Assembly: GCA_013697635.1 (NCBI GenBank)
Contig: JACCWM010000146.1
Location: 1 to 45,291, forward strand
Length of the DNA: 45,291 nt
Source of the DNA: Lujinxingiaceae bacterium
GTDB lineage: Bacteria > Myxococcota_A > Bradymonadia > Bradymonadales > Bradymonadaceae
Direction: 5' to 3'
Shown here: piece after piece, positions 16,244 through 35,512 of the stretch
How the letters are laid out: each line of letters opens with the position of its first letter
Position numbering within the stretch: position 1 is the stretch's first letter
Translations under genes and position numbers: made by a program
The notes under the pieces: generated by a model
Databases searched by the model: none
Told to the model about the DNA's origin: nothing
Seen by the model: only the letters and a program-made list of their open reading frames with translations

Positions 16244-18304
<2,061 letters not shown>

Positions 18305-18639
18305 AGATTTTTTCTCTCCTGACTTCACGAAATATGTCCTGATGGAATGTCACATGGCCCAAGCTCTTGATCGGGGCTGCGCGACGAATTTATGGATATG
18401 CCATGACGCTGGTCTCTTGACCGGCCGAAGGTATGCCAAATGTTTGCTTACGCGAATCCAAGCGTTTTCTTATACTACCGCAGCGGAGAATGGACACAAT
18501 GGCCGATCTCCGAAAATGTTTGTCGCCGTGGCACCGTTGATCCTGGTTGTGAACATTCGTCCAGCGTCAGTCTATTTCCTCGACCAAATTTGGCCGAGCG
18601 TGTCGAAAGCGACTTTCTCAACAGGTTTGGATACGGCTC
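18305..18639. other. 335-bp divergent intergenic region
   Basis: Lies between prkA (minus) and the nth-like gene (plus). I see no gene. A plus-strand TATACT at 18471-18476 resembles a -10 but has only a poor -35 at the right distance (TTGCTT is 21 nt upstream). On the minus strand TTGGAT-17-TGGCAT (about 18432-18460) is a weak candidate. No sigma-54 element fits. Confidence 0.5.
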
Positions 18640-30579: not shown

Positions 30580-30617
30580 CAATCCAGCGTTGCCTCGTTC
30601 ACTCGGAGAATTTGGGT

Positions 30618-32189
30618 ATGGAGCTATTGCCAGGTTTTGATCCCGCGTCGCTTCAGTGGGAGCTGACATGGTGGACCGTGCTTGGGTGGACGGGCAAGGT
30701 GTTGGGGGTTGCGGTGATCCCCTCGGTATTGCTGCAGCGAGGAACGCGCCCGATGGCGGCGCTGGCCTGGATTCTGTGCCTCTTGACCATTCCCTTTTTG
30801 GGGGTGTTTTTGTGGTGGGGGCTGGGACGAAACTATGTGGAGCGGCGCAAGCGACGGCGTTCGCGCTCGCAGGCGCGCATCTCCAAGAGTTTTATGTCGA
30901 TGGCGCGCAGCATCGAGGTTCCCGAGGGGCGCTGGGCGGACTCGAACCATCGTGCCGGCAGCCAGAACGCTTCACGCGCCCAGACCATGGTCCTGCACGA
31001 CGAGCACGGCATCTTTCCGCCGACCCAGGCCAACGGAATCACCGTCTACACCGAAGCCCATGTGGCCTATGACGCCTTTGAAAAGGCGATTCGCGAGGCC
31101 AAGCACCACATTCACTTTCAGTTCTACATCTGGAAGCGCGACACCACGGGGCGTCGTTTTCGTGATCTGCTCGTCGAGAAGGCGCGCGAGGGTGTCGAGG
31201 TGCGTGTGCTCTACGACGCCATCGGCAGCTCCGCGATCGATGGCGATTTCATCGACAAGATTCGCCGTGCCGGAGGCAAGGCTTGCTCTTTTTTGCCGGT
31301 GCGTCTGCTCGAGCGCCGTTTGCAGGTCAACTTTCGAAACCACCGCAAGATCATCGTGATTGACGGCGAGGTCGCCTTTACCGGGGGCATCAACATCGCC
31401 GACGATTACACCGATTGGATGGACATGGCCTATCGGCTCGACGGACCGATCACCTTCCAACTCCAGGAGGTCTTCGCCGAGGACTGGTTTTTTGCAACCA
31501 AAGAAGACCTGGCCGATCCCCGCTATTTTCGAGCGTTGGTCGAAGCGAGCGCACCCGAGCCGGCACCTGAGCCGCCCCCCGAGCAGGCATCGGAGATCGT
31601 CAGCGTGGATACGGGCGCCCAGGCGCCCTTGACGTGCCGGGACATCAACGCACGTGTGGTGGCCAGCGGCCCCGACGATCCGCTCTCGACGATCCACAAG
31701 ATGTTCTTCTTGGCGATCACGAGCGCCAAGGAGCGCCTCTACATCATCACGCCCTATTTTGTGCCCGATCATGCGATCATCACGGCCCTGCAGACCGCGG
31801 CGATGCGCGGCGTCGACGTGCGCATCCTGGTGCCGGCCAAGAGCGACGTGCCGATCACCCAGCATGCTGGCCGCTCCTATTTCGAGTCACTGCTCGAGGT
31901 GGGCGTTCGCGTCTTCGAGTACACAAAGTGCGTGCTCCACGCCAAGTTACTCGTCTTCGACCGCAACTTCACCTTCGTGGGCAGCGCCAACATGGACATT
32001 CGCAGCTTTCGCTTCAACTTTGAGACCAACGTCGTGCTCGACTCCTTGGAGGTCAATCGCGCGATGAGTCAGCTCTTTTTGGATACGCTCAAGCAAAGCC
32101 AGGAGATTCATCTGGCGGAATTTCAAAAGCGCTCCAAGCGTGAGCGCCTCTTGGAAGGAGGGGCACGGCTGTTGAGCCCACTACTTTAG
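30618..32189 (+). CDS. cls: Cardiolipin synthase, phospholipase D family
   Basis: 523 residues from ATG 30618 (GGAG 9 nt upstream). Two N-terminal transmembrane helices (VLGWTGKVLGVAVIPSVLL and ALAWILCLLTIPFLGVFLWW), a basic linker, then two PLD half-sites: NHRKIIVIDGEVAFTGGIN and VLHAKLLVFDRNFTFVGSAN, each with the HxKxxxxD catalytic core. It joins two phospholipids, or phosphatidylglycerol with a lipid, into cardiolipin at the inner membrane. A Pro/Glu-rich insert separates the two halves (around residue 310-335). Followed after 34 bp by the aroB-aroA fusion gene, probably on the same transcript. Confidence 0.93.
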   Translation: MELLPGFDPASLQWELTWWTVLGWTGKVLGVAVIPSVLLQRGTRPMAALAWILCLLTIPFLGVFLWWGLGRNYVERRKRRRSRSQARISKSFMSMARSIEVPEGRWADSNHRAGSQNASRAQTMVLHDEHGIFPPTQANGITVYTEAHVAYDAFEKAIREAKHHIHFQFYIWKRDTTGRRFRDLLVEKAREGVEVRVLYDAIGSSAIDGDFIDKIRRAGGKACSFLPVRLLERRLQVNFRNHRKIIVIDGEVAFTGGINIADDYTDWMDMAYRLDGPITFQLQEVFAEDWFFATKEDLADPRYFRALVEASAPEPAPEPPPEQASEIVSVDTGAQAPLTCRDINARVVASGPDDPLSTIHKMFFLAITSAKERLYIITPYFVPDHAIITALQTAAMRGVDVRILVPAKSDVPITQHAGRSYFESLLEVGVRVFEYTKCVLHAKLLVFDRNFTFVGSANMDIRSFRFNFETNVVLDSLEVNRAMSQLFLDTLKQSQEIHLAEFQKRSKRERLLEGGARLLSPLL

Positions 32190-32223
32190 AGCAGTGCGCA
32201 AGATGGCATAAAGGAATCGATTC

Positions 32224-34461
32224 ATGGCAATTCATCGTACGGCGGCGTTGGCTGACATCGCGTTTCCTCGAGACGGCGTCATTATCGCTGACCGGGCGTT
32301 GCCTCAGGCGGTGCTCTCGAGGCTGGATTTTCCCATTCTCGTCGAGGCCGGTGAAGGCTTGAAGACGCTGGCCAGCATCGAGCAGATGGCCGAGAGCGTG
32401 CTGAAGCGGCGCTCGAGCCGTCCGCTGACGCTGGTGGCAATTGGCGGCGGCTCGGTGGGCGATTCCGTGGGATTTCTGGCGCGTGTGCTGTGGGGCGGCG
32501 TGGGGCTGTGGCATGTGCCCACGAGCTTGCTCGCCATGGTCGACTCCGCCCATGGAGGTCAAAGGGCGCTCAACCTGGGAATGGCCAAAGACCAGATCGG
32601 CAGCTTGTACGGCGCCGAGGAGATCTATCTGGTCGACGAGATCTTGGCGGCTATGCCACCCACCATGCGCGAGGAGGGGTTGGCCGAACTGATCAAGGCT
32701 TTGTGGCTCGGTGATCCGGGCGCATTGAGTCTGCTTGAGGCCGATGGCGGGGTGGGTGAGCTTGCGCGGGCCCCGTTTGAGAGCATTGAGGCACGCCTGG
32801 TCGAGCTTATCGACCGTGCGATCGCGGTCAAGTGCGCTCTCGTCGCCCGCGATCCGCTCGGAGATGAGGGCCTCAGAGCGGTGCTCGAGCTGGGGCACAC
32901 GCTCGCCCACGCGATCGAGCTGCAATGCAACATGAGCCACGGCCACGCTGTGGCCTGGGGCCTGGCTGCGGCCGCTCAGGTCTCGACCGAGCATGGCGGC
33001 CTCTCGGGCGACGATGCCCGGCGCCTGCTTGGCCATGCCTACCCGCTGCTTCGCCACTGGCGCGCGCTCATAGGCTTTGGGCAAGCAAGCCAGTTCGCCT
33101 CGCTGCTCGGCCGCGACAAAAAGCGTATCGACGGGCATCTGCGCTCGGTGGTGCTGCGCGGCCCAGGCAAGCCCATGATCTCCAAGGCCGCCACCGAGCA
33201 CGACTGGTTTCGCGCGCTGCGCCTGAGCGTCGACGCCTGGCAGACCTCGCCGGTGCGCGCGTGCATGGCGCGGCCACGCGCAATTCAACCCGGGCTGGAT
33301 GCGAGCAAGTCGGAGTTCAATCGCCTCCAGATCATCGCATTGCTGCGTCCAGGCAAGACGCGCCTGGTGGGCGAGAGCGGCAGCGAGGACGTCGCGACGA
33401 TGCGCGAGTGCACCGAGCGGCTGCGGGCTAGCAGCGCCACCACGCGCTGTGACCTGGACTGCGGCCTGGGCGCGACGACCTTGAGGTTTTTGATGGCCGC
33501 CGCCGCCCAGCGCCCGGCTGTGACTCGGCTCTACGCCGATCATCGTCTGCTCGAGCGGCCCCACGAGCCGCTGATCGAGGCGTTGCAAAGAGCCGGCGCC
33601 GGCGTGCGCCCCTTCGCCGACACGGTGGGCAGCGGCTTCGAGGTCGAGGGCTGGGCTGTCGCGCCCGATGCGCTCGAGGTCAGCGCCGAGCATTCCTCGC
33701 AGTATGCCTCGGCGCTGGCGCTGCTTGCGGCCAGCGGCCAGCGCTTCTCGCTTCGCCTGACGACTTCGAGCGAGCATCGCGCGATCGCCAGTGAGCCCTA
33801 TTTCAAGATGACCCTGGCACTGCTCGAGCACGCCGGCGTTGCGGTCAGGCGCGAGGGAGACCTGTATTATTTTGGTCCGCGTCCCGAGCTCTATGGTCCC
33901 ACGGATCTCGTGGTCGCGCCCGATGCGAGCAGCGCGGCGTTTTGGGCCGTGGCGAGCTATCTTCGCCCCGAGCTCGCCCCGATCGCGGCGCCGCTCGATC
34001 GGCTCCAACCCGACGCCGCCATCGGCCGCTACCTGGCCCAAATGGCTGCTGCCCACACGCGCGCGCCGGTGATCCTCGATTTGAGCGATTGCCCGGATCT
34101 TGCGCCCCTGCTCACGATCGCCGCGCTCGCCAGCACCTGCGAGGTGCACCTCGTCGGCGCCGCCCACCGGGCCCACGAGTCGAGCTGCATCGAGGACTTT
34201 GCCGGCTCGCTTGCAGCCGTCGGTCTGGACGTGAACCTGATTGCAGACGGCCTGCGTATTGCGCCCGGCATCCAGCAACCCCGGCGCGACGGCGTCTGGA
34301 ACACCCACGACGACCACCGCCTGGTGATGGCCGGCCTCTTGCTGACGAGCCAGGGCGTACCCCTGATCATCGAGCGGCCCTGGGTGATCGCCAAGATCTA
34401 CCCCGAGCTGTGGCATCATGCCCGCGAGGCAGGCTGGGTGGTCGAGGCGATCAATTTATAG
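32224..34461 (+). CDS. Fused 3-dehydroquinate synthase (AroB)-EPSP synthase (AroA)
   Basis: 745 residues; AAGGA 8 nt before ATG. Residues 1-340 read as a 3-dehydroquinate synthase: GGGSVGDSVGFLA (74-86), SLLAMVD, AELIK (154-158), GHTLAHAIE (224-232), SHGHAVAWG and GRDKK. Residues 355-745 read as EPSP synthase: ASKSEFNR (360-367), LRFLMAAA, LLERP, SSQYASALAL (491-500), CPDLAPLLTIAAL, DDHRLVMAG and AKIYPE. These are steps 2 and 6 of chorismate synthesis. Divergent positions in half 1: GGQRALN for the usual GGKTGVN, AKDQIG for GKNMIG, LELGH for LNxGH. In half 2: GLGATTLR for GNAGTxMR, and HESSC where KETDR is usual. No frameshift or stop separates the halves. No other shikimate gene is in the window. 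Confidence 0.85.
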   Translation: MAIHRTAALADIAFPRDGVIIADRALPQAVLSRLDFPILVEAGEGLKTLASIEQMAESVLKRRSSRPLTLVAIGGGSVGDSVGFLARVLWGGVGLWHVPTSLLAMVDSAHGGQRALNLGMAKDQIGSLYGAEEIYLVDEILAAMPPTMREEGLAELIKALWLGDPGALSLLEADGGVGELARAPFESIEARLVELIDRAIAVKCALVARDPLGDEGLRAVLELGHTLAHAIELQCNMSHGHAVAWGLAAAAQVSTEHGGLSGDDARRLLGHAYPLLRHWRALIGFGQASQFASLLGRDKKRIDGHLRSVVLRGPGKPMISKAATEHDWFRALRLSVDAWQTSPVRACMARPRAIQPGLDASKSEFNRLQIIALLRPGKTRLVGESGSEDVATMRECTERLRASSATTRCDLDCGLGATTLRFLMAAAAQRPAVTRLYADHRLLERPHEPLIEALQRAGAGVRPFADTVGSGFEVEGWAVAPDALEVSAEHSSQYASALALLAASGQRFSLRLTTSSEHRAIASEPYFKMTLALLEHAGVAVRREGDLYYFGPRPELYGPTDLVVAPDASSAAFWAVASYLRPELAPIAAPLDRLQPDAAIGRYLAQMAAAHTRAPVILDLSDCPDLAPLLTIAALASTCEVHLVGAAHRAHESSCIEDFAGSLAAVGLDVNLIADGLRIAPGIQQPRRDGVWNTHDDHRLVMAGLLLTSQGVPLIIERPWVIAKIYPELWHHAREAGWVVEAINL

Positions 34462-34465
34462 CGTT

Positions 34466-35512
34466 TTACTGGCAGCGGTGGTCGGTAGGCTGGCACTTGA
34501 AGCGCACGTGGAAGTGCTTGCGGTGGCCGCGGGCGTGGCGGATGGTGGCGGTGCCGCCGGTGTGGTTGGGGTACTGGAAGACGGCCTCGAGCCACTCCTG
34601 GGGTGCACCCTGGCGCCGGGCTTCGTAGTAGAGGGTGCGCTGGTGGTAGCGGTCGATGAACATGTACTCGATCTGGCCGCCAGCGATGAATTGCTTGAGC
34701 AGCCAGAGGGTCTTTTCGACGTCGAGTTCGTCGCGGCGCACGTGGTGGAAGCGGTTGTAATTGGGCGGCGGGCGATGGCGAGGATAGGTGATGTCGACGT
34801 CGCGCCCGGCCTGATGTGAGCGGTGAGGGTGGATCGCGCGGCCGTTTCGAAAGCTGATATCGCCGACGATCAACGGGTCGGAGCCTGGAAAGCGCTGGGC
34901 ATAGGCGTCCATCGAGCGCACGATCTCGCTGACCGTGTAGAAGGTGCCCCAGGCTCGGTGCGGGTACAAAACGATGTAGCTCTCGCCGCGCGGTAGCGGC
35001 TCGGCGTCGATGATGCGGCCGCCATTGGCGGCGCCGACGCTCTTGGCAAAACGTTCAGGCTGGCGCTTCCAGATCAGGACGCGATCACCTTCTTGCAGAT
35101 TGTTGAGGTCGAGCTCAGGGTTGAGCGCCTCGAGCGCGGCCGTGTTGAGGTGGTACATCTGACGCAGGCGTTGCAGTGTGTGGCCGCGAGCTGCCGTGTG
35201 CCAGAACTCTTCTTTCTGGCGCGTCTCGACCAAGGGTATGTCCTCGACCACGGGCCAGACGGTTTCGCCCGGCAGGGCCCAGCGCATACGGCTGATCTCG
35301 TCGGCGATTCGCTCGAGCGCCATCGGCGAGTATACCGTCGAGACGGGAAACGGCCCCACGCCCATGACGGCCAGGCGCAGCGCGGCGGGTGCCTTGGTCA
35401 TCAGACCTTCGTGCGCCTCGAGCGCGCTCGGGTGTGGCGTCCAGGTGCAGGCGACGGCGAGCAGGAGAATTTGGGCCAGGCGTATGCCGTGTCGTTTAAT
35501 CATCTTCCACAT
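34466..35512 (-). CDS. Penicillin-insensitive murein endopeptidase-like protein (MepA type) with LysM
   Basis: 348 residues; ATG 35512 or 35503. Hydrophobic N-terminus (LAQILLLAVAC), so exported. Residues about 105-150 form a LysM repeat (HTLQRLRQMYHLNTAALEALNP, LQEGDRVLIW) for peptidoglycan binding. The catalytic part has HPHRSHQAGRDVDITY, matching the HxxHxxGxxxD zinc motif of the MepA/LAS group, and a terminal HFHVRFKC. Inferred: a periplasmic D,D- or L,D-endopeptidase that opens cross-links between wall strands. It converges with the aroBA gene with only 4 bp between stops. Confidence 0.88.
   Translation of the reverse strand: MWKMIKRHGIRLAQILLLAVACTWTPHPSALEAHEGLMTKAPAALRLAVMGVGPFPVSTVYSPMALERIADEISRMRWALPGETVWPVVEDIPLVETRQKEEFWHTAARGHTLQRLRQMYHLNTAALEALNPELDLNNLQEGDRVLIWKRQPERFAKSVGAANGGRIIDAEPLPRGESYIVLYPHRAWGTFYTVSEIVRSMDAYAQRFPGSDPLIVGDISFRNGRAIHPHRSHQAGRDVDITYPRHRPPPNYNRFHHVRRDELDVEKTLWLLKQFIAGGQIEYMFIDRYHQRTLYYEARRQGAPQEWLEAVFQYPNHTGGTATIRHARGHRKHFHVRFKCQPTDHRCQ

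Follow-up and report, generated by a model that had tools for sequence, protein, structure and literature searches.

The window, i.e. the whole 45,291-nucleotide stretch analyzed here, carries a gene fusing AroB (3-dehydroquinate synthase, DHQS) to AroA (EPSP synthase, EPSPS), hereafter BA, and this gene is one of two BA genes in its genome. Bradymonadales and some Ignavibacteria-type Bacteroidota would use two polypeptides, BA and an AroK-AroD-AroE protein (KDE), for the five central steps of the shikimate pathway. In the reading that we consider probable, these two proteins represent the AROM domain order split over two chains and reached independently. In the same reading, the window gene, a damaged second BA, is either a maintained pseudoenzyme or a repurposed protein.

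Translation of the window gave an uninterrupted open reading frame of 745 aa that starts with ATG, preceded by a Shine-Dalgarno-like AAGGA about 8 nt 5' of the start. The gene and its two halves are as follows.

32224..34461, + strand: AroB-AroA fusion gene encoding 745 aa, a paralog whose active sites are damaged (ORF, Pfam, alignment, residue map, model)
32224..33255, + strand: DHQ synthase (AroB-like) half, zinc ligands and catalytic Lys/Arg/His retained (Pfam 39–300, residue map; boundary approximate, by alignment)
33256..34461, + strand: EPSP synthase (AroA-like) half (Pfam 403–731; alignment from about residue 345; boundary approximate)

The initial annotation had described a single frame with DHQ synthase followed by EPSP synthase, and Pfam agreed, with matches to DHQ_synthase (residues 39–146, 3.5e-23), DHQS_C (152–300, 1.4e-22) and EPSP_synthase (403–731, 1e-35), all above the gathering cut-off. 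Its reading of this order as that of AROM also held, both from the Pfam order and because fungal AROM was the top solved-structure match, spanning both domains in order. The predicted model had a pLDDT of 89 and matched DHQS in Foldseek; its weakest part, residues 111–130, contains two of the changed positions described below. Scores against TIGR01357 (aroB, 191.8 bits) and TIGR01356 (aroA, 184.2 bits) were below the NCBI equivalog cut-offs of 305 and 287, respectively. However, intact BA relatives likewise fell under these cut-offs, so sub-threshold scores alone are no proof of lost function. On the strand opposite the fusion, an open frame of 776 aa (32089–34419, − strand) is probably a high-GC shadow. 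Elsewhere in the window, a PrkA serine kinase (16247–18328, − strand) showed 88% identity to that of another genus (L045), well above the values of its neighbors.

The genome assembly is a draft in 213 contigs, one of which, in its full length, makes up the window. An artefact of assembly or binning could be suspected in such a setting, but we give this explanation a practically negligible probability. About 26 further fusions with an identical junction were found in other genomes, including single-contig ones, and the window BA is therefore not an assembly join, the flaw that had been named as fatal to the initial annotation. The contig carries the only rpsB of the genome and has a tetranucleotide profile similar to those of two other contigs (r 0.92–0.96), indicating that it is native, and synteny is conserved on both sides of BA. 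The artefact was rejected on these grounds.

A second full-length BA, 48% identical to the window copy, was found on contig C54 of the same genome. It lies in an operon with the order aroF (DAHP synthase), BA, KDE, aroC (chorismate synthase), flanked by pheA and tyrA. A search of this genome detected no standalone AroA or AroB. KDE is a 618-aa gene whose start overlaps the BA stop by 4 bp, in the window's genome (G000) as well as in G003. Pfam recognized SKI and Shikimate_dh_N in it; the type I DHQase family PF01487 did not reach its middle domain. Over its full length, this domain could be aligned with type I DHQase (192 columns; P 0.0011 against 0.47 for the control), and the Ser-His and Lys motifs of that enzyme were in register. 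Pfam detected no DHQase of either type elsewhere in the genome. Foldseek best matches of KDE were AROM and the SK-DHQase-DHSD fragment of Candida Aro1 (620–670 columns), and the middle domain matched Salmonella AroD; the KDE model, built from three sequences, was poor (pLDDT 52.8) except in the middle domain and was used for support only. Judged from its sequence, KDE would comprise AroK, a probable, divergent AroD of type I, and AroE, the remaining three AROM domains in AROM order. Two chains of the operon would thus hold the five domains of AROM in the order of that protein. The "missing half" adjoins the intact BA, which goes beyond what the initial annotation had guessed. In this genome, shikimate work would be done by the intact BA that overlaps KDE. 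Long open frames in two other genomes (G007 and G006) were inspected for an extra domain fused to KDE; none was seen, and the extra frame is probably non-coding.

Either BA or a fragment of it was present in 18 of the 21 genomes of the window's family (Bradymonadales, including Lujinxingia vulgaris), and for KDE, whole or as a fragment, the count was 20, in a set that includes incomplete drafts. The fusion had been proposed as a possible lineage trait, which is borne out by these counts. Among 112 genomes sampled from the phylum, BA was confined to this family. It was also found in a minority (about 11 of 90) of the genomes of an Ignavibacteria-type class of Bacteroidota. KDE was also present in each of the 10 genomes that had been reached via their BA loci. 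One 93% complete genome (G011, L184) has cls but neither BA nor KDE, and the organism is perhaps an aromatic auxotroph. No description of bacterial AROM, of AroB-AroA fusions or of Bradymonadales shikimate genes was found in the literature searched, which covered only a minority of subscription journals. As to the concern that such a fusion might already be common and characterized, it is widespread in Bradymonadales and present in some Ignavibacteria-type genomes.

With regard to eukaryotic AROM, the fusions formed one clade in each of the separate-half trees. In the concatenated tree, the fusion clade had support of 100/100, fungal AROM was placed among standalone genes, and a joint clade of fusions and AROM was rejected (p-AU 0.015). 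Since the fusions stand apart from AROM and the joint clade is rejected, the shared order looks convergent, as foreseen by the suggestion of an independent fusion. However, the AROM sample consisted of two sequences transcribed from structure-match alignments, and the separate-half trees, which the initial annotation had recommended, did not reject the joint clade (p 0.32 and 0.43). Convergence between BA plus KDE and AROM is therefore supported, not settled. It appears improbable that the two systems descend from a common ancestral fusion, whether through a bacterial origin of AROM or a eukaryote transfer. The identical domain order and the rank of AROM as best solved-structure match for both BA and KDE speak for common descent, and the single-half AU tests allow it, whereas the concatenated tree speaks against it. 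Also, when matching was done domain by domain, AROM DHQS scored under several bacterial AroB. Kinship deduced from the top PDB match was accordingly rejected, as that rank is due to two domains summed. What had been anticipated as relevance to the assembly of AROM holds as a parallel, descent being disfavored. Most likely, the order of BA and KDE arose independently of eukaryotic AROM. AROM domain order differs from pathway order and, if independent, the same order, split after EPSPS, would suggest a structural constraint on it. In the AroB tree, the DHQS of fungal AROM grouped close to standalone AroB from Ignavibacteria-type genomes (SH-aLRT 91), but AROM EPSPS showed no such placement; the DHQS placement is a weak lead on the origin of AROM.

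The two neighbors of the window copy are as follows.

30612..32189, + strand: cardiolipin-synthase-like phospholipase D gene (cls), 34 bp upstream of BA; neighbor conserved at the older locus (Pfam PLDc, synteny)
34466..35512, − strand: M74 murein endopeptidase-like gene, conserved neighbor on the other side of BA (Pfam Peptidase_M74, synteny)

The cls-BA-M74 arrangement is common to the window and to G017 and G009, and occurs with inserted genes in G013 and G016; the M74 gene adjoins BA or is near it in G014, G005 and G004. In G010, which has an operon copy, cls and M74 are adjacent with no BA between them. The operon copies of G000, G010 and G003 formed a clade without the window copy (98/94), and the tree contained no resolved branch placing the window copy among the cls-type copies. 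Given the shared cls-M74 locus, the BA-less G010 and an operon clade to which the window copy does not belong, the simplest reading is that the window gene represents the older copy, which G000 retained and G010 lost. It would be a second BA retained at the older locus. One genome (G020, L040) differs from the remaining sampled members of its genus, which carry other copies, in having a copy of the operon type, reflecting either transfer or a binning error.

The window BA was compared with 26 other fusions, which defined 89 invariant positions. It was altered at 14 of these, while other fusions were altered at 0–4, except for one long-branch row. Several motifs were broken, i.e. GGK to GGQ, GKN to AKD, LNxGH to LELGH and KESDR to HESSC. 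The principal changes (E. coli numbers in parentheses) are listed below.

32494..32496, + strand: Gly91 versus Arg in other fusions and all 36 standalone AroB (Arg120; alignment)
32560..32562, + strand: Gln113 versus Lys in all others (Lys142; alignment)
32590..32592, + strand: Asp123 versus Asn in all others (Asn152; alignment)
32887..32889, + strand: Glu222 versus Asn in all others (Asn244; alignment)
34168..34188, + strand: EPSPS motif LRxKE(S/T)DR changed to RAHESSC, with Lys340 missing, Arg344 replaced by Cys and Glu341 kept (alignment)

The residues changed here were invariant in every standalone AroB (36 of 36), and likewise in those AroA (standalone) and AROM sequences that were sampled. 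The window BA retains the DHQS zinc-binding residues Glu155, His225, His229 and His239 and, in the EPSPS half, Lys22-Ser23-Arg27, Asp313, Glu341, Asp384-His385-Arg386 and Lys411. Four of the six residues that we take to form the DHQS phosphate pocket, by analogy with A. nidulans DHQS, are lost with the zinc ligands kept. A literature search found no paper naming the pocket residues, and their assignment is therefore partly putative. With much of the predicted phosphate pocket and the EPSPS Lys340/Arg344 site gone, the window BA has most likely lost the ability to form either dehydroquinate or EPSP. The initial annotation had treated the frame as an enzyme, a view that is not supported, given the loss of universally conserved active-site residues in both halves and the second, intact fusion that carries the function; a housekeeping role for the window copy was rejected on the same evidence. 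It is very improbable that the window BA is a bifunctional AroB-AroA enzyme that remains active in spite of its unusual residues. The kept DHQS zinc ligands and catalytic Lys/Arg/His, the kept EPSPS Lys22, Glu341, Asp313, His385 and Arg386 and the confident predicted fold would fit such an enzyme, but it lacks DHQS Arg120, Lys142, Asn152 and Asn244 and EPSPS Lys340 and Arg344, which were invariant in every other sequence examined. The retained zinc ligands, Lys, Arg and His may still leave room for weak or changed cyclase activity.

At positions of lower and intermediate conservation, the window BA was not more divergent than intact fusions and showed no excess of changes. As mainly invariant positions were hit and the rest is not unusually divergent, we infer that the window BA is folded and maintained, as a pseudoenzyme or a repurposed protein. 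The genomes examined contained no close ortholog of this damaged BA that could have served for dN/dS. The main rival, which we regard as a serious though unlikely alternative, is that the gene is a pseudogene in early decay, drifting after the operon copy took over, with stops yet to appear. Consistent with this, G010, a relative with an operon copy, has no gene at the locus, and the damaged copy is found in one genome only. Also, in a neutral simulation run to the observed loss, 3–10% of runs were still stop-free (indels ignored), a fraction that leaves room for a young pseudogene. In contrast, uniform decay, at odds with the lack of excess change at intermediate-conservation positions, is disfavored (combined P 0.006, in tests designed after seeing the data), and the changes are concentrated in the predicted phosphate pocket of DHQS (P 0.006, with partly putative pocket residues) and also at the EPSPS active site. 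Besides, the frame, GC3 and Shine-Dalgarno-like site are all intact. If the window BA is indeed a maintained protein, it could plausibly pair with the intact BA via the DHQS dimer interface, or bind a different ligand. A more elaborate proposal, in which BA and KDE form a two-chain AROM-like complex of independently reached order and the window gene regulates it via mixed dimers or handles a new substrate, is quite unlikely in our estimate. With the damaged copy, nature may provide an example of a pseudoenzyme of two domains that coexists with its working paralog.

Among known systems, AROM of fungi and protists (PDB 6HQV, 7U5S) is the closest in organization, since its order DHQS-EPSPS-SK-DHQase (type I)-SDH is repeated across BA and KDE in operon order. 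However, AROM is one polypeptide, whereas BA and KDE are two, with the fusions in their own clade; this system lets two AROM-like halves be made and tested apart. The window copy further differs from AROM in that both of its active sites are damaged; in C. albicans Aro1, one domain, its DHQase, is inactive (PMC9074039). Standalone bacterial AroB and AroA share the fold and most motifs of each half with the window BA, but are unfused and, in all those sampled, retain the residues absent from it. Other bacterial shikimate fusions, such as DHQase-SDH (AroD-AroE) and shikimate kinase-DHQ synthase, combine domain pairs other than those in BA or KDE. Six Ignavibacteria-type genomes (G087, G107, G116, G097, G124 and G078; L153–L160) have an operon of aroB, an aroD-aroE fusion, aroA and aroK, each a gene of its own, possibly a stage from which BA and KDE could arise. 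On contig C15 of the window's genome (L003:433-2391), a 652-aa protein fuses a MobA-like nucleotidyltransferase to a DHQ-synthase-like domain beside an SDR gene. It is likely to be a sugar phosphate cyclase, and open frames of about this length with matches to AroB recur in the window's family and in other families. No natural-product cluster was recognized beside the window BA. The DHQS fold of the window BA is common to the sugar phosphate cyclase superfamily (EEVS, DOIS, aminoDHQS), in which relatives of DHQS change substrate (PMC4426668). In contrast to these cyclases, the window copy arose as a paralog of the Bradymonadales BA.
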